Assembly (NCBI GenBank): GCA_002255955.1
Contig: NKIM01000029.1
Coordinates: 1 to 64,000 of the forward strand
From: Burkholderiales bacterium PBB2
Lineage (GTDB): Bacteria; Pseudomonadota; Gammaproteobacteria; Burkholderiales; Burkholderiaceae_C
DNA length: 64,000 nucleotides
Direction of reading: 5' to 3'
Positions within the stretch are counted from its first letter, which is position 1, and each line of letters starts with the position of its first letter. Both the position numbers and the translations under genes were made by a program. Shown here one piece after another: positions 1,777 to 59,780 of this stretch. The notes beneath the pieces are model-generated. The model made no database searches. It saw nothing but the letters and a program-made list of their open reading frames with translations, and was not told the origin of the DNA.

Positions 1777-3074
1777 AACACGCGAACCATGTCTGGGGCA
1801 AGCTGGCCCTCTTGCTCGCCGCGACTGGCGCTGCTGCTGTCACTGCCTCAGCGGCGCAGGCGCAGACCAAACCGGCTGCGACTTCCGTTGCCACGCCCGC
1901 TGTAGCACCGCTGAAGGCCGAAGTCATCCACTGGTGGACCTCGGGTGGCGAGTCGGCCGCCGTCAAGGCCCTGGCCGATGCCTACAACGCCGCCGGCGGC
2001 GCCTGGAAGGACACGGCCGTGGCCCTGGGCGAGCAGGCGCGCTCGGTGGCCATCAACCGCATCGTCGGTGGCAACCCGCCGACGGCGGCCCAGTTCAACA
2101 CCTCCAAGCAGTTCCTCGATGTGGTGGATCAGGGGCTCTTGAATCATGTGGATGAAGCGGCGACCGCCGGCAAGTGGGAGCAGGTGCTGCCCGAGACGGT
2201 GCTCAAGGTCATCAAGGTCAAGGGCCATTTCTACGCCGCGCCGGTCAACATCCACATGCCGGCCTGGATCTGGACCTCGAAAGCCGCCTTCAAGAAGGCC
2301 GGCATCGCAGCCGAGCCCAAGACCATGGACGAGCTCTTTGCCGCGCTCGACAAGCTCAAGGCCGCTGGCCTGATCGGCCTGGCCCATGGCGGCCAGCCCT
2401 GGCAGGACAACACGGTGTTTGCCGCCGTGCTCAGCAATGTTGGCGGCCGCGAGCTCTACCTCAAGGTCATGCGCGACCGCGACCCCAAGGCCATCATGTC
2501 GCCCGAGTTCAAGAACGTGCTGCTCAGCTTCAAGCGCCTGCAGAGCTATGTGGACAAGGGCTCGCCGGGCCGCAACTGGAACGACGCCACCGCCTTGCTG
2601 ATCAATGGCAAGGCCGGTGTGCAGTTCATGGGCGACTGGGCCAAGGGCGAGTTCGCCCTGGCCAAGCAGGAGGCCGGGCGCGACTACGGCTGCATCGCCG
2701 GCTTCGGCCCCAACTCGCCCTACATCATCCAGGGCGATGTCCTGGTCTTCCCCAAGACCAATCAGCCCGAGGCCATCAAGGCCCAGAAGCTGCTGGCCAC
2801 CGTGGCCACCACGCCGGCCACGCAGATTGCCTTCAGCATCAAGAAGGGCTCCATCCCGGCGCGCAGCGATGTCGATGCCAGCCAGCTCGACATCTGCGGC
2901 CAGCAGGGCGTGGCCATCATGAAGGACAAGTCGCGCCACCTGGGCAATGGCGAGGTTTATCTGACGCCGGATCAGAACGGCGCCATGCAGGACATCGTGA
3001 CCGCTTACTGGAACCGCAACATCCCGGTTGAGAAGGTGCAAAAAGACCTGATCGCTGCCCTCAACAACAACTGA
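1773..3074 (+). CDS. Sugar ABC transporter substrate-binding protein
   Basis: A 433-residue family 1 extracellular solute-binding protein. A signal peptide (MKHANHVWGK, then a hydrophobic stretch to SAAQAQ) precedes a typical carbohydrate-binding start, EVIHWWTSGGESAAVKALADAYN. Residues such as FMGDWAKGEFA and the C-terminal region match periplasmic sugar-binding proteins of the glucose/oligosaccharide (GtsA-like) type. The start at 1773 gives an ATGA overlap with the GH1 gene and places the signal peptide correctly. It is followed by two permeases and an ATPase, so the importer is complete. The substrate is inferred to be a beta-glucoside or glucose-containing oligosaccharide. Confidence 0.93.
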   Translation: MKHANHVWGKLALLLAATGAAAVTASAAQAQTKPAATSVATPAVAPLKAEVIHWWTSGGESAAVKALADAYNAAGGAWKDTAVALGEQARSVAINRIVGGNPPTAAQFNTSKQFLDVVDQGLLNHVDEAATAGKWEQVLPETVLKVIKVKGHFYAAPVNIHMPAWIWTSKAAFKKAGIAAEPKTMDELFAALDKLKAAGLIGLAHGGQPWQDNTVFAAVLSNVGGRELYLKVMRDRDPKAIMSPEFKNVLLSFKRLQSYVDKGSPGRNWNDATALLINGKAGVQFMGDWAKGEFALAKQEAGRDYGCIAGFGPNSPYIIQGDVLVFPKTNQPEAIKAQKLLATVATTPATQIAFSIKKGSIPARSDVDASQLDICGQQGVAIMKDKSRHLGNGEVYLTPDQNGAMQDIVTAYWNRNIPVEKVQKDLIAALNNN

Positions 3075-3088
3075 GGGTACAGGCGCTG

Positions 3089-4000
3089 ATGTCTCGCAAG
3101 AATCGCTCTTCGAATCGAACTTCTCGGCTCCGTGGGCTGACGCCCTGGGCGGCCTTGCTGCCCATGGCGTTTACGGTGCTGCTGGGCTACCTCGGTGCGG
3201 TGCTCTGGACGCTGCGCGTGTCCCTGAGCAGCTCGCGCACCTTTCCCAAGGACGACTTCGTCGGCCTGGCCCAGTTCGAGCGCCTGTTCGGCAACGAGCG
3301 CTGGCTGCTCTCGCTGGAGAACCTCGCGGTCTACGGCCTGCTCTTCATCGGCGCCTGCATGGTGATCGGCTTTCTGCTGGCCGTGTTCATCGACCAGAAG
3401 GTGCGCGGCGAGGGCCTCTTGCGCACCATCTTTCTCTACCCCTACGCCATGTCCTTTGTGGCCACCGGTCTGGTCTGGCAATGGGTGCTCAATCCCACCG
3501 ACGGCATCCAGCAGGCGGTGCGGCAGATGGGTTTCGAGAACTTCACCTTCGACTGGATCATCGACCAGGACAAGGTCATCTACACCGTGGTGATCGCCTC
3601 GGTCTGGCAGGCCTCGGGCTTGGTGATGGCGCTGCTGCTGGCTGGCTTGCGCGGCATTGATGAAGACATCTGGAAGGCCGCCCGCATCGATGGCATCAAG
3701 CCCTGGCGTGTCTACCTGTCCATCGTCCTGCCCATGCTCGGCGCTTCGTTTGCCACCGTCTTCGTGCTGCTCTTCACCGCGGCGGTCAAGGTCTTCGATG
3801 CCGTGGCGGCCATGACCCAGGGCGGCCCTGGCACGGCCAGCGATGTGCCGGCCAAATTCATCATGGACCACCTCTTTGGCCGCGCCAATGTGGCCCTGGC
3901 CTCGGCCGGCGCCATCGTGCTGCTGCTGACCGTGCTGGCCCTGGTGGCGCCGTTTTTCTACGCCCGCAGCCGCAAGGCTCGGAAGGGGAAGGGCGCATGA
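3089..4000 (+). CDS. Sugar ABC transporter permease, MalF/UgpA type
   Basis: A 303-residue inner-membrane protein with six predicted membrane segments, starting with PWAALLPMAFTVLLGYLGAVLW. The EAA loop that contacts the ATPase is visible as DIWKAARIDGIKPWRVYLSI. It lies 14 bases after the binding-protein gene and overlaps the next permease by four bases. It forms half of the heterodimeric transmembrane channel of this importer. Confidence 0.94.
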   Translation: MSRKNRSSNRTSRLRGLTPWAALLPMAFTVLLGYLGAVLWTLRVSLSSSRTFPKDDFVGLAQFERLFGNERWLLSLENLAVYGLLFIGACMVIGFLLAVFIDQKVRGEGLLRTIFLYPYAMSFVATGLVWQWVLNPTDGIQQAVRQMGFENFTFDWIIDQDKVIYTVVIASVWQASGLVMALLLAGLRGIDEDIWKAARIDGIKPWRVYLSIVLPMLGASFATVFVLLFTAAVKVFDAVAAMTQGGPGTASDVPAKFIMDHLFGRANVALASAGAIVLLLTVLALVAPFFYARSRKARKGKGA

Positions 4001-4905
4001 GCCACTCTGCTGTCATGATGAAAACACAAGCCGAACGCCGCGCCCAAGCGCGCGGACGCTTCAATCCGGCCCGCTGGGGCATCTACGCCTTCCTGCTGAC
4101 GGCGGCCCTGTTCTTCCTCGCCCCGCTCTACATCATGCTGGTCACCTCCTTCAAGACCATGGAGGAGATCCGCCTGGGCCAGCTCTTTGCGCTGCCCATG
4201 AATGCCACGCTCGAGCCCTGGCGCGCGGCCTGGAGCGAGGTCTGCACGGGGGTGTCCTGCGAGGGCATCAGCGCCGGGTTCTGGAACTCGGTCGCCATCG
4301 TGGTGCCCAGCACCATCCTGCCTGTGCTGATCGGCGCGCTCAACGGCTATGCGCTGAGTTTCTGGCGGCCGCGCGGCGCCAATGTGTTGTTCGGCATCCT
4401 GATGCTGGGCGCCTTCATTCCCGTGCAGGTGATGATTTATCCGCTGGTCAAGGTGATGGCGGCCGTGGGCCTCTACAGCTCGCTTCCCGGCATCGTGGCC
4501 GTGCACTTGATCTTCAGCATGCCGGTGATGACCTTGCTGTTCCGGAACTACTACAGCGCCATCCCGCCGGAGCTGTTCAAGGCCGCGCGCATCGACGGTG
4601 GCGGCTTCTGGCGCATCTTTGTGCAGCTGATGCTGCCCATGTCCACGCCCATCATCGTGGTGGCGGCCATCATGCAAGTGACCGGGGTCTGGAACGACTA
4701 CATCCTCGGCCTGGTCTTCGCCGGCCGCGAGCATCTGCCGATGACGGTGCAGCTCAACAACGTGATCAACACCACCACGGGTGAGAGGCTCTACAACGTC
4801 AACATGGCGGCCACCATCCTCACCTCCATGGTGCCGCTGCTGGTCTATTTCGTCTCCGGACGCTGGTTTGTGCGCGGCATTGCGGCCGGTGCGGTCAAAG
4901 GTTGA
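3997..4905 (+). CDS. Sugar ABC transporter permease, MalG/UgpE type
   Basis: A 302-residue partner permease. The first membrane segment is WGIYAFLLTAALFFLAPLYI and the EAA loop is LFKAARIDGGGFWRIFVQLMLP. The ATG at 3997 overlaps the previous stop (ATGA). A second in-frame ATG at 4018 is possible, but it would lose the coupling. The spacing and order (binding protein, MalF type, MalG type, ATPase) are those of CUT1-family carbohydrate importers. Confidence 0.94.
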   Translation: MSHSAVMMKTQAERRAQARGRFNPARWGIYAFLLTAALFFLAPLYIMLVTSFKTMEEIRLGQLFALPMNATLEPWRAAWSEVCTGVSCEGISAGFWNSVAIVVPSTILPVLIGALNGYALSFWRPRGANVLFGILMLGAFIPVQVMIYPLVKVMAAVGLYSSLPGIVAVHLIFSMPVMTLLFRNYYSAIPPELFKAARIDGGGFWRIFVQLMLPMSTPIIVVAAIMQVTGVWNDYILGLVFAGREHLPMTVQLNNVINTTTGERLYNVNMAATILTSMVPLLVYFVSGRWFVRGIAAGAVKG

Positions 4906-4916
4906 TTGAGAGAACA

Positions 4917-6026
<1,110 letters not shown>

Positions 6027-6051: not shown

Positions 6052-7593
6052 ATGAGCTTGCCCCCTGTGACCAGTTTGCCGCTGTTGCGCCGCATCGTCA
6101 TCGCCGGCGGCGGCACCGCCGGTTGGATGAGCGCCGCGGCGCTGTCCACCTTGCTGCCGCCGGGCTACGAGATCCACCTGGTCGAATCGGAGGAAATCGG
6201 CACCATCGGGGTGGGCGAGGCCACCATCCCGAACATCAAGAACTTCAATGCCGCCCTGGGCCTTGATGAAGACGACTTCATCCGCGCCACCCAGGGCAGC
6301 TTCAAGATGGGCATCGAGTTCGTCAACTGGGGCCGGCTGGGTGAGCGCTACATCCACGGCTTTGGCAGCTTCGGCCAGGATTTCGGCAGCGTTGGTTTTC
6401 ACCACCAATGGCTGCGCCTGCGCCGCGAAGGCCTGGCCTCGGCCCTGGACGATTACTCCATCAACACCAGCGCGCCGCGCCAGGCCAAGTTCATGCGCGC
6501 CCGGCCCGAGATGGCCGGCTCGCCGCTGGCCGACATCGCCTACGCCTACCAGTTCGACGCCGGCCTCTACGCCGCTTATCTGCGCCGGCATGCCGAGCAG
6601 CGCGGCGCGCGCCGCAGTGAGGGCCGCATCGTCGAGGTGCTGCGCGCGGCCGAAGACGGCCGCATCCGCGCCCTGCGCCTGGACAGCGGCGAGCAGATCG
6701 AGGGCGACTTTTTCCTCGACTGCACCGGCATGCGCGCCTTGCTGATGGGACAGGCCTTGGGGGTGGGCTTCGAGGACTGGTCACATTGGCTGCCCTGCGA
6801 CCGAGCCTGGGCGGTGCCTTGTGAATCGGCCGGCCCCTTGCTGCCCATGACCCGGGCCACCGCACACAGCGCCGGCTGGCAGTGGCGCATCCCGCTGCAG
6901 CACCGCACCGGCAACGGCCATGTGTTTGCCAGCCGCTTCATGGACGAGGGCGAGGCGCGCGATCTGCTGATGCGCCATCTCGACGGCAAGCCCCTGGCTG
7001 AGGCGCGCTCGATTCGCTTCCAGCCCGGGCGGCGGCACCAGGCCTGGCATCAGAACTGCCTGGCCGTGGGCCTGTCAGGTGGTTTCCTGGAGCCGCTGGA
7101 ATCGACCAGCATCCACCTGATCCAGACCGCGCTGGCCCGGCTGATGAGCTTTTTCCCGCATGGCGGGCTGGATGCGGCCGACATCGCCGAATACAACCGC
7201 CAGACCCAGTTCGAATACGAGCGCATCCGCGACTTCATCATCCTGCACTACAAGGCCACGGCGCGGGACGACTCGCCGTTCTGGAATCACTGCCGCCAGA
7301 TGGCCGTGCCCGAGACCTTGCAGCGCAAGATCGATCTGTTCTGCAGCAATGGCCGCATCGTGCGCGAGGCCGACGAGCTGTTCGCCGAGCTGAGCTGGCT
7401 GCAAGTGATGAATGGGCAGGGCCTGCAGCCGCGGGGCTACCACCCGCTGGCCGAGCAGACGCCCCAGGCCGAGGCGGTGGAGCTGCTCGATCACATCCGG
7501 CAGGTGATTGCGCGCTGCGTGCAGGTCATGCCCACGCAGGCCGCCTATATCGCTGAACATTGTCAGGCCGTCAGGCCAGGGAGCGGCACATGA
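6052..7593 (+). CDS. Tryptophan-halogenase-family flavoprotein
   Basis: A 513-residue FAD-dependent protein. The nucleotide-binding motif GGGTAGW is at residues 19-25. The Lys that forms the halogenating chloramine in characterised enzymes aligns with K85 in GSFKMGIEF. The family motif WxWxIP is present (W276, W278), as is the LEPLESTSIHL segment. The fold and key residues fit flavin-dependent halogenases, but the substrate cannot be read from sequence. Proteins of this family are often found inside carbohydrate-use loci of Xanthomonas and Caulobacter relatives without a proven halogenation role. It sits between the ABC ATPase and secreted hydrolases and overlaps the next gene by four bases. 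No flavin reductase partner was seen in the window. Confidence 0.9.
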   Translation: MSLPPVTSLPLLRRIVIAGGGTAGWMSAAALSTLLPPGYEIHLVESEEIGTIGVGEATIPNIKNFNAALGLDEDDFIRATQGSFKMGIEFVNWGRLGERYIHGFGSFGQDFGSVGFHHQWLRLRREGLASALDDYSINTSAPRQAKFMRARPEMAGSPLADIAYAYQFDAGLYAAYLRRHAEQRGARRSEGRIVEVLRAAEDGRIRALRLDSGEQIEGDFFLDCTGMRALLMGQALGVGFEDWSHWLPCDRAWAVPCESAGPLLPMTRATAHSAGWQWRIPLQHRTGNGHVFASRFMDEGEARDLLMRHLDGKPLAEARSIRFQPGRRHQAWHQNCLAVGLSGGFLEPLESTSIHLIQTALARLMSFFPHGGLDAADIAEYNRQTQFEYERIRDFIILHYKATARDDSPFWNHCRQMAVPETLQRKIDLFCSNGRIVREADELFAELSWLQVMNGQGLQPRGYHPLAEQTPQAEAVELLDHIRQVIARCVQVMPTQAAYIAEHCQAVRPGSGT

Positions 7594-8450
7594 GATGGAT
7601 GTTGGCAGTCCTTGCCATGGCGGGCCTGCTGGTCTGCGATGTGAGTGCAGCGGCCGGCCCCAGCCCCAGCCCCAGCCCCAGCTTTCAGATCGCCACCTAC
7701 AACCTGCGGCTGAATCTGGCCTCGGATGGGCCGAACGCCTGGCCCCTGCGGGCCGAGGCCGTCAAGGCCTTGATCCGGTATCACGAGTTCGATGTCTTCG
7801 GCACCCAGGAGGGCCTGCCCGAGCAGATCGACGAGTTGTCTCGCATGGACGAGTTTGCCCATGTCGGCGTGGGCCGCGACGACGGCAAGCGTGCCGGTGA
7901 GCACTCGGCCATCTTCTTTCGCAAGGCGCGCTTCGAGGCGCTCAGCAGCGGCGACTTCTGGCTCAGCCAGACGCCGGATGTGCCCTCCAAAGGCTGGGAC
8001 GCGCGCTGCTGCAACCGCCTGGCCAGCTGGGTGCAGCTGCGCGACCGGGAGAGCCAGCGCCGCTTCTTCGTCTTCTCGGTGCACTTCGATCACGAGGGTG
8101 AAGTGGCCCGCAAGGAATCGGCCAAGCTCTTGCTGCACAAGGTCAAGGAGATTGCCGGCACAGCGCCGGTGATCTGCCTGGGCGACTTCAACTCGACCCC
8201 CGAGACCGAGCAGATCCAGCGCATGCAGGCGGCGCTGCGCGATGCCTACCGGGTCAGCCAGAGCCCGCCCTACGGCCCGGTCGGCACCTTCAACGCGTTC
8301 AAGATCGACGCGCCGATGACGGCCCGCATCGACTACCTCTTCCTCAGCCCCGGCATCACGGTGCTCAAGTACGGCGCGCTCAGCGATTCGCAGGCCGGCC
8401 GTTTCCCGTCTGACCACCATCCGGTGCTGCTGCGCGTGCGCCTGGACTGA
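7590..8450 (+). CDS. Secreted endonuclease/exonuclease/phosphatase-fold protein
   Basis: A 286-residue protein with a signal peptide (MRWMLAVLAMAGLLVCDVSAAA) followed by a short (Pro-Ser)n linker encoded by a tandem CCCAGC repeat. The EEP fold motifs are in order: IATYNLRLN, GTQEGLPEQ, SVHFDHEG, LGDFNSTPET and the C-terminal SDHHPVLL. These residues bind metal and carry out phosphoryl hydrolysis in DNase I-like, sphingomyelinase-like and inositol-phosphatase-like enzymes. It should act in the periplasm or outside the cell. Its start overlaps the halogenase stop (ATGA). EEP proteins recur in glycan-degradation operons with unknown substrates. A sphingomyelinase-like role is possible next to GH30 and GH20 but is unproven. 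Confidence 0.88.
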   Translation: MRWMLAVLAMAGLLVCDVSAAAGPSPSPSPSFQIATYNLRLNLASDGPNAWPLRAEAVKALIRYHEFDVFGTQEGLPEQIDELSRMDEFAHVGVGRDDGKRAGEHSAIFFRKARFEALSSGDFWLSQTPDVPSKGWDARCCNRLASWVQLRDRESQRRFFVFSVHFDHEGEVARKESAKLLLHKVKEIAGTAPVICLGDFNSTPETEQIQRMQAALRDAYRVSQSPPYGPVGTFNAFKIDAPMTARIDYLFLSPGITVLKYGALSDSQAGRFPSDHHPVLLRVRLD

Positions 8451-8510
8451 ATTGACGCCGGCACCCGATGCCGTGCTTATCCCTTTTCGTTGTCTGACCC
8501 GACTCCCTCC

Positions 8511-9992
8511 ATGAGCCTCCTGTTTCCTGCTTCATCCTCCTCAAGCCGCCCTGGCTTTGCGTCTGCTGTGCTGATGCTGGCTGTCTGCATCAGTGTCGGC
8601 GCCGGTGCCGGTGTGGCCCAGGCCGCACCGGATGCCGGCAGCGTGTCGTCCTGGCAGACGCGCGCCGACCAAAGCCGATTGCTGGCCCGCGAGCCTGACC
8701 GCCGCTTCAAGCCCGGGCAAAAGGCGCTGCCCCTGCACATCGAGGTGGACCCCAGCCAGCGCTTTCAGACCATGGAAGGTTTCGGGGCCTCCCTCACCGA
8801 TGCCTCGGTCTGGCTGATGCAGCAGCGCATGAGCGAGACGCAGCGCAAGGCCTTGCTGGAGGAATTGTTCGGCCGCGGGCCGGGGGGTATCGGCTTTGAT
8901 CTGACCCGCCTGACCATCGGCGCCTCGGACTTTTCGCGCAGCCACTACAGCTATCTGGACCTGCCTCCCGGCCAGACCGATATGGCATTGAAGGCCTTCT
9001 CGATCGAAGCTGCGCGCGCCGAGCTGCTGCCCGTGGTCAAGTCGGCCCTGGCCATCAATCCCCGCCTGCAGGTGATGGCTTCGCCCTGGAGCGCGCCGGG
9101 CTGGATGAAGCAGACCGACAGCTTGATCAAAGGTCGCCTCAAGCCTGAGATGTACGGTGTGTTTTCTGAGTATCTGGTGCGTTATGTCGACGCTTTTGCG
9201 GCCGAAGGCGTGCCTATCTTTGCGCTGACGATTCAGAACGAGCCGCACTTCGAGCCGCCTGACTACCCCGGCATGCGCGTCGATCCGGCCGAACGTGCCG
9301 CCCTGGTCGGCCAACACCTGGGGCCTTTGCTCGCGCAACGCGGCCTGAAGACGCAGCTGATCGACTGGGACCACAACTGGGACGAACTGAAGTCGCCGCT
9401 GGCGGTGCTGGCCGATCCGGTGGCACGCCGCTATGTGGCCGGCGTGGGCTGGCATTGCTATGCCGGCGATGTGCAGGCCCAGACCGTGGTCCATGAGGCC
9501 CACCCCGACAAGGACACCTGGTTCACCGAATGTTCAGGCGGCGAATGGGCGCCCGAGTGGCACAAAACCTTGCCCTGGATGATGAGCAATCTGGTGATCG
9601 GCAGCACCCGCGGCTGGGCCAAGGGCGTGCTGATGTGGAACATGGCGCTGGACGAGAACCACGGGCCCCATCTGGGGGGCTGCAAGGACTGCCGCGGCGT
9701 GGTCACCATCGACTCCAAGACCGGTGAGGTGACCCGAAACATCGAGTACTACGCCCTGGGTCATGCCAGCAAATTCGTGCGTCGCGGTGCGCAGCGCATT
9801 GCCTCGCCGACCAAGCTGGGCGGCCTGGAAACGGTGGCCTTTCGCAATGCCGACGATGGCTCCATCGCCCTGATCGTCAGCAATGGCGAGGCGCAAAGCC
9901 GCCGCTTCACCGTCGGGCAGGGCGCGCGCCGCTTGGCCTACACCCTGCCCAAGCACAGCGTGGTCACCTTCACCTGGGCGGGCCAGCCATGA
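8511..9992 (+). CDS. GH30 glucosylceramidase/beta-1,6-glucanase-type hydrolase
   Basis: A 493-residue secreted protein with a signal peptide ending near GVAQAAPDA. The catalytic domain begins with FQTMEGFGASLTDAS, the GH30 landmark. The acid/base Glu is E244 in IQNEPHFEP and the nucleophile is E340 in WFTECSGGEW. The MSNLVIGSTRGWAKGVLMWN region and the C-terminal beta-sandwich are typical. GH30 members of this type cleave beta-1,6-glucan or glucosylceramide. Operon context (GH1, GH3) favours glucan, while GH20 and sialate esterase leave room for glycolipid. I used ATG 8511 rather than a TTG at 8490. It overlaps the next gene by four bases. Confidence 0.92.
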   Translation: MSLLFPASSSSSRPGFASAVLMLAVCISVGAGAGVAQAAPDAGSVSSWQTRADQSRLLAREPDRRFKPGQKALPLHIEVDPSQRFQTMEGFGASLTDASVWLMQQRMSETQRKALLEELFGRGPGGIGFDLTRLTIGASDFSRSHYSYLDLPPGQTDMALKAFSIEAARAELLPVVKSALAINPRLQVMASPWSAPGWMKQTDSLIKGRLKPEMYGVFSEYLVRYVDAFAAEGVPIFALTIQNEPHFEPPDYPGMRVDPAERAALVGQHLGPLLAQRGLKTQLIDWDHNWDELKSPLAVLADPVARRYVAGVGWHCYAGDVQAQTVVHEAHPDKDTWFTECSGGEWAPEWHKTLPWMMSNLVIGSTRGWAKGVLMWNMALDENHGPHLGGCKDCRGVVTIDSKTGEVTRNIEYYALGHASKFVRRGAQRIASPTKLGGLETVAFRNADDGSIALIVSNGEAQSRRFTVGQGARRLAYTLPKHSVVTFTWAGQP

Positions 9993-17438: not shown

Positions 17439-18101
17439 ATGCCAGCCCGTCACCTTCAAACCCTGTTTCGCTCGCGCAAGGCCTTCTTCGCAGCCCTGCT
17501 GTCATCGCTTGTTTTGACTGCCTTACCCATGCCCAGCCACGCCATCGAAGAGCCCGAGTACCAGCTTGTGCAAGACCTCGGTGGGATCGAGCTGCGGCAG
17601 TACGCGGCCTATGCGGTGGCCGAGGTGGTGGTGCCCGGCCCGGCAGGCGAAGCGGGCAATCAGGCCTTTCCCGTACTAGCCGGCTATATCTTTGGCAAGA
17701 ACAAGGGCGAGCGGAATTTCGCGATGACCGCCCCCGTGGCGCAGGTCGCTGTGCCGGTGAAGCTGGACATGACCGCGCCGGTGACCCAGGCCGCCGCGGC
17801 CGGTGGCTTTCTGGTGCAGTTCGTATTGCCCAAAGGGGTCACGGCGGACCAAGCGCCGGAGCCGCTGGACGCCCGTGTTCAACTCCGGCAGGTGCCGCCG
17901 GCACGGTTCGCGGTGATCCGCTACACGGGTTTCTGGTCGGAGTCGAACTACCAGGCGCATCTGGCCCAGTTGCAAGCCGCCATGCGCTCGGCCAAGCTCG
18001 ATTGGGAAGGCGAGCCGGTGTACTCCCGCTACGACGCGCCCTTCGTGCCGTGGTTCTTGCGGCGCAACGAGATCTGGCTGCGCTTGGTGCAAGCGCCCTG
18101 A
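17439..18101 (+). CDS. SOUL family haem-binding protein, exported
   Basis: A 220-residue protein with a signal peptide (KAFFAALLSSLVLTALPMPSHAIEE) and a SOUL/HBP domain: EYQLVQDLGGIELRQYAAYAVAEV, GYIFGKNKGERNFAMTAPV, VKLDMTAPVTQ and YTGFWSESNYQAHLAQLQ. The paired MTAPV motifs are characteristic. Members bind porphyrins or haem with low specificity; the bacterial periplasmic role is not established. The first in-frame start is ATG 17439, although the best ribosome site (17411-17416) is 22 bases away and better placed for another frame. Its closeness to the GlcG-like and HprRS-like genes suggests a haem or redox-stress neighbourhood. Confidence 0.88.
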   Translation: MPARHLQTLFRSRKAFFAALLSSLVLTALPMPSHAIEEPEYQLVQDLGGIELRQYAAYAVAEVVVPGPAGEAGNQAFPVLAGYIFGKNKGERNFAMTAPVAQVAVPVKLDMTAPVTQAAAAGGFLVQFVLPKGVTADQAPEPLDARVQLRQVPPARFAVIRYTGFWSESNYQAHLAQLQAAMRSAKLDWEGEPVYSRYDAPFVPWFLRRNEIWLRLVQAP

Positions 18102-19504: not shown

Positions 19505-20119
19505 TCAGTGGGGGCAGCCCGCGTGCTCGATGTCGGTATCGGCTGGATGGCTGAACGGCGGACGTTTCATGTGAATCTGGCGCAGCAGTGTGATGCCGAG
19601 CATGGCCGTTCCACCCGCGACAAGAATCAGCGTTGCATAGACCCCCAGGATGAAGCCAAACGGGGCGGTGTGGTTCCACGAGCGCGCAATGCCGAGAAAG
19701 GACGCGTAGAGCCAGGACACCGATGACAGGGTCGCGAACAGGGTCAGGCCGAGCATGTGGAAGACAGGCAGTTCGAGGAAGGCATGTCCTCGCTGGAGCA
19801 CCGGAAAAGCGAAGCGGTGCATCAGCCAACCATTGAGGGTCAGCACCAACACGGTGAACACTTTCATCCACAGCTTTTCGTTCATCAGGTATGCCGGGTT
19901 CTGGGTGTGGCCGACATAGACCAGGGCCGCACCACTCAACCAGAGCGCGATCAGCGCGAGCGTCATCGTGGACTTGGTTCTTTCCAGGTCCAGCAGCCGC
20001 TGGGGCGTTGACCGTGTGTGCACGGTCCAGAGGAAGCGAACGTCGTAGTCCAGCATCTTTCCGACCGCCAAGGCCATGGCCAGCAAATGGCAAAAAGTGA
20101 GCGCGTTCTTGAGCAACAT
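19505..20119 (-). CDS. Hypothetical five-TM membrane protein
   Basis: A 204-residue protein with about five hydrophobic segments (NALTFCHLLAMALAVGKML, LALIALWLSGAALVYVG, VLVLTLNGWLMHRFAF, MLGLTLFATLSSVSWLYASF, FILGVYATLILVAGGTAMLG) and a His-rich C-terminal end. Conserved-looking His and Trp in the membrane recall CopD/DUF2214-type proteins, but I cannot assign it firmly. It follows the subtilase gene by 98 bases on the same strand and could be the last gene of that operon. It converges on the RRM terminator. Confidence 0.75.
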   Translation of the reverse strand: MLLKNALTFCHLLAMALAVGKMLDYDVRFLWTVHTRSTPQRLLDLERTKSTMTLALIALWLSGAALVYVGHTQNPAYLMNEKLWMKVFTVLVLTLNGWLMHRFAFPVLQRGHAFLELPVFHMLGLTLFATLSSVSWLYASFLGIARSWNHTAPFGFILGVYATLILVAGGTAMLGITLLRQIHMKRPPFSHPADTDIEHAGCPH

Positions 20120-20217
20120 AGAGTCCTGGGCCGAGGGCCGTTGAGGTGCTTGTTGCTCAGTGAGTGCCGGGATCGATCAGGCGGGTTGCGGTTTCAAGTT
20201 GTAAAACCAGGCCTGCT

Positions 20218-21519
20218 TCAGCGTTCTGCCACACGGCGGGTTCCAGGCAGCGTTGCTTCCAGTGCGAGCGCGGCGTCGGGCATGGCCGCCCCATGGCCCA
20301 GGACCTTTTCGATGGCCTGGCGATCCATGCCCGGCGCGATGGCCTGGAGCAGGGCGATCAATCCGCTGATGTGCGCGGCAGCCATGGATGAGCCACTGGC
20401 AAAGTCGTAGCGGCTCCCGGGCGCCAGGGTCAGCACATCGCGCCCAGGGGCTTGCAGTGTGGCCTCGGCTTTGACTGTCGGCGAGTCGGCGACACCCACC
20501 GTGATGACGCCCGGCACACTCGCCGGGAAGCCATTGCGCATGCCGGCAGCCGGTTGTGCAGCGACAACGATGCGTTCCTGTTTCAGCAGCTTGGCCAGCA
20601 GTTCTGCCAAAAGTGGATCGTTGGGGCCGCCCAAGCTCAGATTGAGGATGCGGGCATCGCTGGCCATGACGGCTGCCAGCGCCTTGGCCAAGGTGAAGGT
20701 GTTGCAGCGTGCGAGCGCCGCAGCAGGCGCGGGCAGGTACCAGCAGGCCTTGTACAGGCTGATGCGCGCATCCGGTGCGATGCCGACAATGCCCTGCCGG
20801 TTGTTGCCAGCAGCGGCGATGATGCCCAGCACTTCGGTGCCGTGGCGGTCCTGTTCAAAACGGAGGCGATCGGCGTCGACCAGGTTCTCGGTGCTGTGGA
20901 TGCGCCCGCGCAGCTCGGGGTGCTCCGTCTGTGCACCGGTGTCGATGACCGCAATGTGGGCACCCTTGCCCGTACTCCATCGGTGGGCTTGGGCTGTTTT
21001 CATGGCCGCAAAGCCGGACTGCATGGTCAGGTAGGGGTCGTTGTACGAGACCTCCGCGCCAGCTGCTGGCGTGGCGTGCATCGAAAAATCTTGCAGCGCT
21101 TGCGCCAGTTGCACGCGTGCATCACGGCTGAGTTGGGCCACGAGCTGATCGCGCTCGGCCTCGAGGGGGATCTCGAAGACCACACAGTGCACACCCAGGG
21201 CCGGGATGGGCCAGGCCGCAGCTTCCTTCAGGCGGTAGTCCTGCGCAAGGGCTTGGAGCGTCTGGGCTGCTTGCTCGCCTTGGGTGTAGCGGGCCCGTCT
21301 GCCATAGCCGGGCAGGCTTGTTCCGGCGCGGTTGGGCACAGGCTTCAGCGGATTGGCGACGGTCACCACGACAAAGCGCTCGCTGTTGGCTTGCATCCGG
21401 GCCTCGTCGCTGCGGGCCAGCGCCGATGGGTTCACGCCCGCTGTGGAGTCGACCTGCGGCATGCTGCCGCAGCCGCTCAGGAGGCCGCTCAAGGCCAGCG
21501 TGAGAAGCCAGGCTTTCAA
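20218..21519 (-). CDS. S8 subtilisin-like peptidase, lipoprotein
   Basis: A 433-residue peptidase. I propose a TTG start at 21519, overlapping the anti-sigma stop (TTGA), because it yields a textbook lipoprotein signal (MKAWLLTLALSGLLSGC, lipobox LLSGC); no ATG gives this. The catalytic triad is D193 (AVIDTGAQ), H226 (DRHGTEV) and S378 (ASGSSMAAAH). Residues 50-150 form an N-terminal domain of unknown function before the catalytic domain. It should be membrane-anchored and face the periplasm. Its coupling to an ECF sigma/anti-sigma pair suggests that it senses or processes a component of that pathway; cleavage of the anti-sigma is an inference. Confidence 0.9.
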   Translation of the reverse strand: MKAWLLTLALSGLLSGCGSMPQVDSTAGVNPSALARSDEARMQANSERFVVVTVANPLKPVPNRAGTSLPGYGRRARYTQGEQAAQTLQALAQDYRLKEAAAWPIPALGVHCVVFEIPLEAERDQLVAQLSRDARVQLAQALQDFSMHATPAAGAEVSYNDPYLTMQSGFAAMKTAQAHRWSTGKGAHIAVIDTGAQTEHPELRGRIHSTENLVDADRLRFEQDRHGTEVLGIIAAAGNNRQGIVGIAPDARISLYKACWYLPAPAAALARCNTFTLAKALAAVMASDARILNLSLGGPNDPLLAELLAKLLKQERIVVAAQPAAGMRNGFPASVPGVITVGVADSPTVKAEATLQAPGRDVLTLAPGSRYDFASGSSMAAAHISGLIALLQAIAPGMDRQAIEKVLGHGAAMPDAALALEATLPGTRRVAER

Positions 21520-22193
21520 GGCGCTTCGCCCAGGGCTTCGACCAGACGCAGCTTTCCAGTGCGACGAAGCTGCTCGACGGTGTCGGTGCTGCTGCGCCGC
21601 CCATCCGTCAGCTCGAGGACGTAAGCGCCGGCGGTGTTGGGGCCGCTGCCGACTTGCAATCCGAACTCGTGCAGCAGCCGGTTCCACTCGGCGATGGCGA
21701 GTCGCTCATCGGGCACGACGCGGATCTGCGCGCGCGGCGCGGAACTGCCGTCTTTGGCTTGGCTCAGGGTCTGGAAGTCCGGCTTGTCTTGCCCGAACCG
21801 TTGCGGCAGCAAGACCCCGAGGGCGATGGCTTGCAAGGCGACGCAAGCGGCCAGTGCATAGCTGATGCGCGTGCTGCGCCGGCTCGCCGGTGAGTGCGTG
21901 TCGGTCGGCGTTGGTGCAGAGGGCGCAATCTCTTCGGCCTGATCCAGTCGCTTGAGCATGCGCTCCAAGCCGGACTCAAGGTCGGGCAGCGGTGCAAGGG
22001 GCTGCGCCAGCAGCTCCTTCAACTGGGTCTGGTGTTCAAACTCGGCGCGGCAGGCCGCGCAGTTCAGCAAATGCGCGGCAACGCTGGCCTGCTGGGCCTC
22101 GCTGGCCGTGCCGTTGACGATCCATGGCAGCATCTGCTGAGTCAGCAGATGCGACAGGTCCTGGTCTTGAGGGGCACTTGGAATCGGCTTCAT
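21516..22193 (-). CDS. Zinc-finger anti-sigma factor
   Basis: A 225-residue protein. The N-terminal zf-HC2/ZAS domain has the His and paired Cys in AAHLLNCAACRAEFE (about residues 40-55), which bind ECF sigma factors. A membrane segment follows (ISYALAACVALQAIALGVLL, about 110-130), and then a periplasmic part of about 95 residues with VRVVPDERLAIAEWNRLL. It overlaps the sigma gene by four bases upstream and the subtilase gene by four bases downstream. It should hold the sigma factor at the membrane until a periplasmic signal arrives. Confidence 0.9.
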   Translation of the reverse strand: MKPIPSAPQDQDLSHLLTQQMLPWIVNGTASEAQQASVAAHLLNCAACRAEFEHQTQLKELLAQPLAPLPDLESGLERMLKRLDQAEEIAPSAPTPTDTHSPASRRSTRISYALAACVALQAIALGVLLPQRFGQDKPDFQTLSQAKDGSSAPRAQIRVVPDERLAIAEWNRLLHEFGLQVGSGPNTAGAYVLELTDGRRSSTDTVEQLRRTGKLRLVEALGEAP

Positions 22194-22822: not shown

Positions 22823-22853
22823 TGAGTGCCTGCACAAGCCCAAAAAGTTTCAC
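22823..22853 (-). promoter_or_regulatory. Candidate ECF promoter of the sigma operon
   Basis: On the minus strand, GTGAAACTTTT, 11 bases, then AGGCACTCA, ending 36 bases before the sigma ATG. AAC in the -35 element is typical of ECF promoters. The same blocks with the same spacing stand before the cytochrome lipoprotein gene, and a close variant stands before the PEP-CTERM gene. Confidence 0.7.
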
Positions 22854-22858
22854 GCGCC

Positions 22859-23635
22859 TTAAAAAGAATGTGTCAGTGTGGTTGACCAATGCCCGCGTGC
22901 CGGCGAGTTCAGCACGGTCAGCGCGTTTCGATCGGTGTCCAGGTAATTGAGTTCGGCGCGCCACGCCTTGTGTTGCCAGGTCAGACCGGCACTGCCGTAC
23001 AGGTAATCGCCACGCGGCTGCACCCGGGCCTGGCCGAGCGCTGCGGTCACAGAGAACTGCTCGTTCAGGGGCCAGCGCGTCCCCACATCGATCGTCCAGC
23101 GCATGGGCGCGCTGTCTGTACGGGCGTGGGGGTAGCGGTACATGGAGACACCAAAGACCCAGAGATCCCGAAAACTGAGGCTCAGGCCTGCCTCGGCGCG
23201 ATCGAAGACTCTCGACGCGCGGTCGCTCGGGTAGGCGTAGTACAGCAAGCTCGCTCTGGACTGCCAGTCCTTCCCAAGCACCCAATCCTGGGCAGCGTGA
23301 ACGATGAGCCGTGAGTTCGCTTGGCTGCGGTGCTGCACGGTGAGGGTCCCGCCCACCGACCAGCCGGATGCGTCATACATGCTGGCGCTTCCCTGGAGAA
23401 CCGGCCTGCGCTGCCCGAGGACGGCGCCGCGCTCCGTGAGCTCGCTGCTCACCGCCAACTCGGCCGCCCATTCACGCGATTGCGCCTGGACCTCGCGCGT
23501 GCCGGCGGCCGCACCGATCGCTGCGCAGAGCCCCGTCCAAAGCGCAGAGCTCAAGCGGCTCGGCCCTTGGGCCTTCGTGGCGATAGGAGGGGAGTGGGGT
23601 CTCAAGTACGCAGCCTGGTGTGTTTGGCTCGGCAT
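22859..23635 (-). CDS. Hypothetical outer-membrane beta-barrel protein
   Basis: About 258 residues from ATG 23635; an earlier start at 23725 would run into the promoter region of the divergent gene. A hydrophobic export signal (ALWTGLCAAIGAAAGTREVQAQ) is followed by alternating amphipathic strands such as WSVGGTLTVQHRSQ, ASLLYYAYPSD and RAELNYLDTD. The C-terminal end HWSTTLTHSF finishes with Phe, as outer-membrane barrels do. I do not recognise the family. It is upstream of the ECF sigma gene on the same strand, but the sigma gene has its own promoter in the 72-base gap. The divergent cytochrome lipoprotein and CXXCH barrel suggest a shared envelope function. Confidence 0.65.
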   Translation of the reverse strand: MPSQTHQAAYLRPHSPPIATKAQGPSRLSSALWTGLCAAIGAAAGTREVQAQSREWAAELAVSSELTERGAVLGQRRPVLQGSASMYDASGWSVGGTLTVQHRSQANSRLIVHAAQDWVLGKDWQSRASLLYYAYPSDRASRVFDRAEAGLSLSFRDLWVFGVSMYRYPHARTDSAPMRWTIDVGTRWPLNEQFSVTAALGQARVQPRGDYLYGSAGLTWQHKAWRAELNYLDTDRNALTVLNSPARGHWSTTLTHSF

Positions 23636-23683
23636 TCTTGCATCAATGCGCGCGCTGCTCTGGCCTTGCATATGTCTCGTGCT

Positions 23684-23714
23684 GTGCAACTTTTCTGCCG
23701 GCGTGAGGCACTCA
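23684..23714 (+). promoter_or_regulatory. Candidate ECF promoter of the cytochrome/porin operon
   Basis: GTGCAACTTTT, 11 bases, AGGCACTCA, ending 34 bases before the lipoprotein ATG at 23749. It matches the promoter of the ECF sigma gene at 10 of 11 bases in the -35 block and 9 of 9 in the -10 block, with identical spacing. Confidence 0.7.
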
Positions 23715-23748
23715 GCTTTCGTCAATGGCTGAATGCGAAAGGAAGCAC

Positions 23749-24210
23749 ATGCGATTCTTGAAATTGGGCGGCATCGCCGGCTGCGTTGTGGCGGCGTTGG
23801 TGGCGGCCTTGGTGGCCGGTTGTGGCGGAGGCAGTGGCGACGGGTTGGATGCGAACGGGCGGCCCCAGGGGGAGGGTGAAGACCCCGGCGGCCCGATGAC
23901 GGCCAGCTTCAAGTCGATACAGTCCAAGGTGTTCACACCGGTCTGCACCGGCTGCCATGCTGGCGGATCGGCTCCCGCAGGTTTGCGCCTGGATGCGAGC
24001 AACAGCTACATGCTGCTGGTTGACGTCGACAGCGCTGAAGTGCCCAGCCTCAAGCGGGTGAAACCGGGCAATGCCACCAACAGCTACCTCATCCACAAGC
24101 TCGAAGGCCATGCCGCCGTCGGTGCTCGCATGCCCCTGGGCGGCCCCTACCTCGATGCCGCCACGATCACCCTGATTCGTCAGTGGATCGACAAAGGAGC
24201 GCCGCAATGA
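23749..24210 (+). CDS. c-type cytochrome lipoprotein
   Basis: A 153-residue protein. The lipoprotein signal ends at LVAGC with lipidated C25, followed by a Gly-rich linker (GGGSGDGLDANG). A single haem site is C66-C69-H70 in VCTGCHAGG, and M128 in ARMPLGGP is a likely axial ligand. The rest (SIQSKVFTPVC, LVDVDSAEVPSLKRVKPGNATNSYLIHKLEG, LIRQWIDKGA) matches the single-haem c-type domain often found on surface or periplasmic proteins. ATG 23749 has AAAGGAAG just upstream. It overlaps the CXXCH beta-barrel gene by four bases, so the two products are probably made as partners. Confidence 0.88.
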   Translation: MRFLKLGGIAGCVVAALVAALVAGCGGGSGDGLDANGRPQGEGEDPGGPMTASFKSIQSKVFTPVCTGCHAGGSAPAGLRLDASNSYMLLVDVDSAEVPSLKRVKPGNATNSYLIHKLEGHAAVGARMPLGGPYLDAATITLIRQWIDKGAPQ

Positions 24211-59015: not shown

Positions 59016-59046
59016 CTGCAACTTTTTGTAGGTCCGAGGCTACTCA
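59016..59046 (+). promoter_or_regulatory. Candidate ECF promoter of the PEP-CTERM gene
   Basis: CTGCAACTTTT, then AGGC-T-ACTCA. The distance from AACTTTT to ACTCA is 15 bases, identical to the two ECF promoters at 22823 and 23684. It ends 65 bases before the ATG. Confidence 0.6.
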
Positions 59047-59111: not shown

Positions 59112-59780
59112 ATGAAGCACAGCGTATTGAACAAATCCTATGCAGCCGGATCGGCTCTTGTGGTGAGCGTGGCTGCATTGGCAGCCTCACCGGCACAGGC
59201 CGTCACTGTCGCAGACCCCATGGGGGACTTTCTGAGCACCTACAAGGGCGCTCAGACCGGCGAGTTTGATGTCATCGCCAGCTGGGTCAATTACGACGTC
59301 GACCGTGATGTGTTTGAACTGTCAGCCACCATGGCGGGCAACATCTCGCCGACCTCCTTGGCGGCCTACGTCTGGGGCTTCAATCGTGGACAAGGCACGG
59401 CAGTGTTCGGCAACAGCCTTGGCTTGACCGAGGTGTTGTTCGATCGAACGGTGGTGGTCAATGCCAATGGCTCTATCACCAGCGCTGGCGCCAATGTCGG
59501 TACGGCCACGATCTTCGGCTCCACCATCACGGCCACCATTGCAGGCTCTGTCTTGCCTGAGAACGGCTTCAGCAAGGCCAACTACACCTGGAATCTGTGG
59601 CCGCGTTTCACGGGCACCAGCTTCAACGGTGTCTCGGTCTCGGGTGTGGCGGCGATTCCAGATTTCGCGCCCAACACCGTCAATGCCGCGGTGACGGCCG
59701 TTCCCGAACCTTCCACCACGGCCTTGATGTTCTTGGGGATTGGCGCCTTCGCTTTGCTGCGTCGTCGTCAGGCAAGTTAA
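59112..59780 (+). CDS. PEP-CTERM sorting-domain protein
   Basis: A 222-residue exported protein. The signal peptide (SALVVSVAALAASPAQAVT) is followed by about 165 residues of low-complexity, beta-rich sequence (ASWVNYDVDRDVFELSATMAG). The C-terminal PEP-CTERM tail is VPEPSTTALMFLGIGAFALLRRR: VPEPS motif, membrane helix, then Arg cluster. Exosortase should cleave near PEP and pass the protein to the cell surface, usually with exopolysaccharide. The exosortase itself is not in the window. ATG 59112 gives the signal peptide. The body matches no family I recognise. Confidence 0.9.
   Translation: MKHSVLNKSYAAGSALVVSVAALAASPAQAVTVADPMGDFLSTYKGAQTGEFDVIASWVNYDVDRDVFELSATMAGNISPTSLAAYVWGFNRGQGTAVFGNSLGLTEVLFDRTVVVNANGSITSAGANVGTATIFGSTITATIAGSVLPENGFSKANYTWNLWPRFTGTSFNGVSVSGVAAIPDFAPNTVNAAVTAVPEPSTTALMFLGIGAFALLRRRQAS

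Follow-up and report, generated by a model that had tools for sequence, protein, structure and literature searches.

A putative self-regulating ECF sigma factor module with an adjoining subtilase, linked to a cytochrome and haem-barrel operon in a Burkholderiales bacterium

Promoters read by ECF sigma factors carry AAC in the -35 element, the factors commonly read their own promoter, and ECF autoregulation together with a neighbouring target operon is ordinary. In ChrR the corresponding domain is a cupin, and the RseA type has an RseB-binding domain. Subtilase propeptides inhibit their own enzymes. RsiV, a lysozyme-sensing anti-sigma factor, is described in the available portions of PMC4183432 and PMC5014341 as recognising a specific protein and being destroyed by proteolysis. 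The locus analysed here lies in a stretch of 64,000 nucleotides of contig NKIM01000029.1 of Burkholderiales bacterium PBB2 (the window), and its features are collected in the table. It resembles the RpoE/RseA and ChrR types in its two-domain ECF sigma factor, in the AAC of the -35 element, in the site before the sigma factor's own gene and in a zf-HC2 anti-sigma factor, the N-terminus of which aligns to ChrR (2q1z, E 2.4e-6). Unlike in ChrR and RseA, the periplasmic domain of the anti-sigma factor is plausibly subtilase-propeptide-like and a subtilase gene adjoins. The proposed recognition of a specific protein by the anti-sigma factor and its proteolytic destruction would be like those of RsiV as these portions present it; unlike there, the proposed partner would be the cell's own neighbouring protease.

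Table. Features of the sigma module and its candidate targets, in window coordinates.
Feature	Position	Strand	Basis or remark
Membrane protein, 204 aa, candidate regulon member	19505..20119	-	about 70% identical orthologues in L014 and L015, same place
Third ECF-type promoter	20161..20188	-	41 bases before membrane-protein gene; third exact VAACY-N15-GGNACTCA place
Subtilase (S8)	20218..21525	-	lipobox SGC (by eye); Pfam E 2.7e-27
Anti-sigma factor	21516..22193	-	N-terminal zf-HC2, one hydrophobic helix, putative C-terminal subtilase-propeptide-like domain
ECF sigma factor, 198 aa	22190..22786	-	Pfam region 2 and region 4; alignment to sigma-E chain 1or7_A
ECF-type promoter, sigma operon (putative autoregulation)	22823..22853	-	sequence read; conserved before sigma gene in relatives
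TorF/gcw_chp-like outer-membrane protein	22859..23635	-	between the two promoters; TIGR02001
ECF-type promoter, cytochrome/haem-barrel operon	23684..23714	+	sequence read; conserved before cytochrome gene in relatives
Monohaem c-type cytochrome lipoprotein	23749..24210	+	lipobox AGC, one CXXCH (by eye); orthologues aligned
Outer-membrane barrel, N-terminal CXXCH, 362 aa	24207..25295	+	fused cytochrome-porin architecture
Fourth ECF-type promoter	59016..59046	+	65 bases before PEP-CTERM gene; GCTACTCA instead of GGNACTCA, one letter off
PEP-CTERM exported protein, candidate regulon member	59112..59780	+	TIGR02595

On the minus strand the genes follow one another in the order outer-membrane protein, sigma factor, anti-sigma factor, subtilase and membrane protein, and on the plus strand the cytochrome lipoprotein gene is followed by that of the CXXCH barrel with an overlap of 4 bases. 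The sigma-side block (minus strand, 22853-22823) reads GTGAAACTTTT-N11-AGGCACTCA and ends 36 bases before the sigma ATG (22786); the cytochrome-side block (plus strand, 23684-23714) reads GTGCAACTTTT-N11-AGGCACTCA and ends 34 bases before the ATG taken as the cytochrome start (23749); by eye, another ATG in the same frame, upstream at 23725, lacks a preceding ribosome-site-like stretch. Nineteen of the 20 specified letters are alike and the gap is of 11 bases in both, and the sequence itself thus bears out the original prediction as regards the match, the equal spacing and the two distances. The same prediction had the sigma gene share one promoter with the cytochrome operon. The gene of the outer-membrane protein separates the blocks, and there are therefore two promoters with a common sequence; a single shared intergenic promoter is ruled out. 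With zero or one mismatch, CAACTTTT-N11-AGGCACTCA occurs in the 5.48 Mb genome only at the two window sites, and with up to three mismatches at five places versus six for a reversed control. Exact matches to the degenerate pattern VAACY-N15-GGNACTCA number three in this genome versus two for its control, and those three all fall in the sigma/barrel cluster, no more than 3.6 kb apart.

A search of 99 genomes of relatives found the barrel protein in 7, counting the window's own and one weak match with internal stops; of 399 genomes sampled from the family 15 have it, again counting the own one. Named genomes gave 15 loci, which belong to Roseateles, Paucibacter, Pelomonas, Rubrivivax, Methylibium and other Burkholderiales and also include one Steroidobacteraceae and a short Rokubacteriota match. 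Only 3 of the 18 genomes of the window's genus carry it (G000, G002 and G009), and it is therefore accessory. Twenty-four distinct barrel loci with enough flank were compared, namely the window, L014-L026 and ten of L039-L049; omitted were L043 and L079 (the same loci as L026 and L014), L013 (its contig ends before the sigma gene), L027 (a short haem-motif match only), L012 (a weak match with internal stops) and short duplicates. Sigma factor, anti-sigma factor and subtilase are linked in all 24, in varying order, and are accompanied by the TorF-like protein in 23 (found with a profile iterated over the very loci compared) and by the cytochrome in 22; L024, on a short contig, is without both of the latter and L049 without the cytochrome. 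The sigma gene is divergent from the barrel gene in 5 loci (window, L014, L015, L039 and L048), convergent in L024 and colinear in 18. The linkage has outlasted this rearrangement and therefore argues for a working unit. With a profile of the anti-sigma factor, 20 of 321 genomes sampled across the class, the own one among them, proved to have members, and of the 20 places outside the own genome 15 were examined: the sigma gene adjoins in all 15 and a subtilase gene follows in 10. As to the other five, L112 ends at a contig edge, L114 has a protein of the caspase family (Peptidase_C14) with a Sel1 repeat in the subtilase's place after the sigma/anti-sigma pair (8081-9475, plus), and L102, L103 and L105 gave no subtilase match nearby. 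The pairs of L103 and L105 sit, by eye, among dnaK, dnaJ, dapB and carA/carB-like genes. In L107, from another family, the whole set is present, cytochrome and barrel included.

Blocks of the type AAC-N16-GGCACTCA precede the sigma and cytochrome genes of the relatives. In the upstream regions of the 24 loci most relatives read TTGAACC followed 15 bases on by GGCACTCA or a close variant, and in the window's clade the -35 block is GCAACTTTT or GCAACC. The original prediction depended on both blocks being kept in orthologous loci, and they were found to be so with a relaxed pattern and also with a probe taken from the window only. The relaxed pattern, [ACG]AAC[CT]-N15/16-GGNA[CAT][ACT][CT]A, drawn after inspection of the upstream regions, matches 44 of the 47 regions before sigma and cytochrome genes (25 sigma, 22 cytochrome), versus a single match among the 47 opposite strands and 53 among 3096 tiled stretches, which contain the promoters themselves; as the loci are related, these counts lack independence. 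In the three regions without a match (L014 cytochrome, L024 sigma and L045 sigma) one is obtained if A is allowed for the first G of GG, or CG for the second pair. The window-only probe is made up of the 20 letters that both window sites have in common and was run on 44 regions of other loci. At 14 or more letters it matches 18 of these regions versus 14 of 5444 control stretches and none of the 44 on the opposite strand, and at 13 or more letters 25 regions versus 114 of 5444 and 2 of 44; the remaining 19 score 12 or less, probably because their -35 element is GAACC and not CAACTTTT. A weight matrix built from 27 sites of relatives ranks within the window the sigma site 1st (12.2), the PEP-CTERM site 2nd (9.2) and the membrane-protein site 3rd (8.1), the cytochrome site coming only 6th (6.1), below positions 2534 and 45034. 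Over 17 genomes VAACY-N15-GGNACTCA has 48 places versus 39 for a control, therefore the pattern alone says little and it is the placement before linked genes that carries weight. Conservation of the blocks extends to loci in which the sigma factors are about 40% identical, the spacers have diverged and the genes stand in another order.

The sigma factor matches PF04542, PF08281 and PF04545, all above cut-off, and with its 198 residues, of which 7-186 align to sigma-E, fits the ECF class (group IV); an AAC-type -35 site, as expected of an ECF factor putatively reading its own promoter, is present and conserved before its gene. The base before AAC varies at the two promoters together: of 22 loci, 17 have G at both and 5 have C or A at both, with no mixed case (Fisher p 3.8e-5, which for related loci is not a clean probability). 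Residue 170 of the sigma factor, which aligns with the recognition helix of sigma-E, is Ala throughout the C/A clade, the other loci having Thr or Ser there. Under the filter used eight sigma columns separate the two clades, and therefore the pattern at residue 170 is consistent with a direct reading of the promoters by this factor and is no proof of it.

The proposed members of the regulon are supported, and its extent would be wider than predicted, since the genes of the membrane protein and of a PEP-CTERM protein also carry a site. Before the membrane-protein gene, GCAACC and GGCACTCAC are kept in the aligned sites of the window, L078, L014 and L015, and the spacer varies. The protein itself gives a weak match to DUF2214 and none in NCBIfam at E up to 0.1. 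About 1.4 kb past this gene lies a gene for a SOUL haem-binding protein (17439-18101, plus). The PEP-CTERM gene and its site are 36 kb from the sigma cluster in the window, and the sorting domain scores above cut-off in two families (TIGR02595, 32.5 bits versus 16; PF07589, 30.4 versus 20.7). The orthologues in G002, G009 and G004 have a similar site upstream, in the last two with AACG after the C. We considered that the PEP-CTERM site might be a false match, as G004 has the promoter without a barrel cluster, and dropped this: in G004 the genes of outer-membrane protein, sigma factor, anti-sigma factor and subtilase come immediately before the PEP-CTERM gene, with sites before both the sigma and the PEP-CTERM genes. 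The order is the same in G012 and G001, which like G004 are of the window's genus and without the barrel, the PEP-CTERM protein of G001 being a 48% homologue. Sites precede the PEP-CTERM gene in both; before the sigma gene G012 has a variant site ending GGAACATA, and in G001 no site was seen in that region. The linkage in three genomes and the promoter in the window argue that the PEP-CTERM gene would belong with the sigma module. In G211 another ECF-like sigma gene (L166:8223-8789, minus) stands beside a PEP-CTERM gene and has TTGAACC-N15-GGTACTCA just upstream.

The anti-sigma factor carries the HxxxCxxC of zinc-finger anti-sigma (ZAS) factors, with H41, C45 and C48 invariant in 14 rows and zf-HC2 matched in 14 of 14 members, and a hydrophobic helix (112-133) presumed to span the membrane; alignment A2 is without L023 and alignment A3 without L022 and L026. 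At an E limit of 1, 10 of 14 members match the Fervidolysin propeptide family PF22148 (best E 3.4e-4), and the window protein has no propeptide match in Pfam. When five orthologues were run singly, that of L026 passed the gathering score (21.4 versus 21) and four fell below; among ten distant members three match below cut-off and seven give none, and L165 and L173 have no propeptide match at E up to 0.1. In the structure model (mean pLDDT 75.8, pTM 0.34; about 90 in most blocks of the C-terminal domain) residues 156-221 adopt the order beta-alpha-beta-beta-alpha-beta, as in PF22148 and also common to other ferredoxin-like folds. Against the subtilase propeptides 1scj_B, 3cnq_P, 2z58_B and 9fid_D the domain superposes with TM-scores of 0.61-0.68 (target length) and rmsd of 2.7-3.0, and no Foldseek match reaches E 0.001, S6, EF-1beta and ACT domains ranking high and with better E-values than the propeptides. 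Profile comparison of the domain with the N-terminal part of the subtilase itself was weak both in one run (probability 0.5, E 0.12) and in a second, a single comparison (probability 16.7, E 0.0015). The domain is thus like subtilase propeptides (PF22148; 1scj) in the order of its elements, in fold similarity and in a weak sequence match, and unlike them in that it forms the C-terminal end of an anti-sigma factor and is not part of the protease; on sequence and model, a propeptide-like nature is plausible and would suggest control by the neighbouring subtilase. The latter is intact, with the triad of S8 enzymes (D195, H228 and S380) invariant in 12 aligned rows, and is predicted to be exported to the envelope.

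Turning to the products of the plus-strand operon, the cytochrome matches PSCyt1 at E 0.0023, below cut-off. A second copy of this domain occurs within the cluster of L039 (5866-6198, minus), and in L107 a 1061-aa protein with CHRD repeats and Ig domains (2614-5796, minus) carries at its end a cytochrome domain that belongs to this family as well, its gene having a GAACC-N15-CGTACTCA site near the start. In L049 the frame before the barrel gene (about 6820-7090) ends, by eye, His-rich where other loci carry the cytochrome. The barrel protein begins with a stretch like a signal peptide, followed by a single CXXCH that all 14 aligned rows share; it gave no meaningful match to the sequences of solved structures (best E 0.086). 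In its low-confidence model (mean pLDDT 61.9) DSSP lists 17 strands, or 16 without one of 4 residues; 16 is the number expected of a Cyc2 and also that of general porins, to which the Foldseek matches of the model belong. We rejected the barrel as a Cyc2 after checking two defining motifs, neither of which was found. As given in the available excerpt of PMC8406198, these are AXPXFAR[QK][TY] 5 residues before CXXCH and PXL four residues after it. The barrel is like the Cyc2 of that excerpt in having an N-terminal single CXXCH followed by a barrel, and the A, P, A and Y of the first motif can be aligned to its AEPYLAVRY; unlike in Cyc2, the F and R of AXPXFAR are replaced, AEPYLAVRY ends 3 residues before CXXCH and not 5, PXL is missing after the haem site, which reads CHVNPSGGG, and the protein has 362 residues. 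In outline the barrel would work like a fused cytochrome-porin, and we infer electron transfer across the outer membrane. The outer-membrane protein between the two promoters falls below cut-off for TIGR02001 (E 8.7e-8, 32 bits versus 47.15). It accompanies the sigma module even in genomes without the barrel and is therefore a candidate for the sensor, which is a guess. Overlapping the likely start codon of its gene is GCATTCTTGCATCAATGC (23632-23649), with short inverted arms, which recurs upstream of the gene in L015 and in L014 is cut by the region edge.

The regulon of the original prediction, in which an ECF sigma factor, an anti-sigma factor and a lipoprotein subtilase control the cytochrome and the CXXCH-bearing barrel, appears supported by the blocks in 44 of 47 regions and the linkage in 24 of 24 loci, and as far as sequence comparison goes the conservation of the promoters and the gene linkage are supported. 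As a whole explanation we propose, and consider probable, a self-regulating ECF sigma regulon in which the adjoining subtilase most likely makes the first cut in the anti-sigma factor. The sigma factor would read its own promoter and those of the cytochrome/haem-porin operon, of the membrane-protein gene and of the distant PEP-CTERM gene, and the membrane-spanning zinc-finger anti-sigma factor would hold it. An envelope signal may then free or activate the subtilase, which would dock on the propeptide-like domain and make the first cut, and the released sigma factor would amplify its own operon and raise the outputs. We infer in this scheme the reading of all four promoters by one sigma factor, the proteolysis, the order of events and the signal.

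That the blocks are due to chance, or to shared ancestry without function, is very improbable. The closest pairs, the window with L013 and L078, are indeed alike across the whole region, and the cytochrome site is only 6th by the relatives' matrix; against this, the blocks persist at such a low sigma identity and through divergent spacers and changed gene orders, and the relaxed-pattern count and the window-only probe speak against it as well. It is unlikely, too, that the promoters are genuine ECF promoters of which some are read by other ECF sigma factors of the cell. Such a division of labour would account for G009, where the sigma factor (L016) is of the Thr type and of the other clade and the PEP-CTERM promoter is nevertheless GCAAC-type, and the ECF-like sigma gene of G211 with its similar upstream site points the same way; however, the window genome holds one further relative of the sigma factor, 31% identical (E up to 1e-8), and the base before AAC varies together at both promoters.

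The role of the subtilase leaves more room for alternatives. The regulon may be real with the subtilase as an output or a quality-control protease, the propeptide-like domain having another role and a DegS-type site-1 protease cutting the anti-sigma factor. Ferredoxin-like folds are common, S6 and ACT domains match with better E-values, and the anti-sigma factors of L102, L103 and L105 do without a subtilase match nearby, all of which favours this reading; we nevertheless think it rather unlikely, since the subtilase is linked in every barrel locus and follows the anti-sigma gene in 10 of 15 distant loci, and one of the other five is cut by a contig end and one has a caspase-family protease instead. 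The relation between the two proteins might also be the reverse, with the anti-sigma factor binding the subtilase as a stand-in propeptide and so sensing free exported protease, in a feedback without cleavage. The inhibition of subtilases by their propeptides fits this, as does the position of the domain at the very C-terminus, where a propeptide would end; on the other hand, conservation of the final residues of the anti-sigma factor is not strong, and no feature examined separates this feedback from the cleavage model. We regard it as improbable, to about the degree of the reading by other sigma factors, and keep to the self-regulating circuit with a first cut by the subtilase.

A further reading builds on that circuit. 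The anti-sigma factor may have taken over a subtilase propeptide domain that the co-encoded protease recognises, which would give a portable module coupled in different relatives to different envelope outputs, either the haem-porin with its cytochrome or a PEP-CTERM surface protein; we put this forward tentatively, as somewhat short of an even chance. New would be the coupling to a haem-barrel, outputs that change from one close relative to another, and a propeptide-like anti-sigma factor beside a dedicated protease. Among the literature matches listed, titles and abstract beginnings gave no description of the cluster or of a propeptide-bearing anti-sigma factor, and an ECF group with a subtilase neighbour may exist; a word look-up in the available text of PMC8103513 and PMC7406223 found peptidase, subtilisin and cytochrome only in one reference-list entry.

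For environmental Burkholderiales the locus provides an ECF circuit that can be tested and in which a protease is predicted to be linked directly to an anti-sigma factor. It also connects a regulator with a fused cytochrome-porin that is uncharacterised. Should the propeptide reading hold, this would be a compact wiring of a protease to transcription, and the function of the haem-barrel could be approached through the inducing signal.
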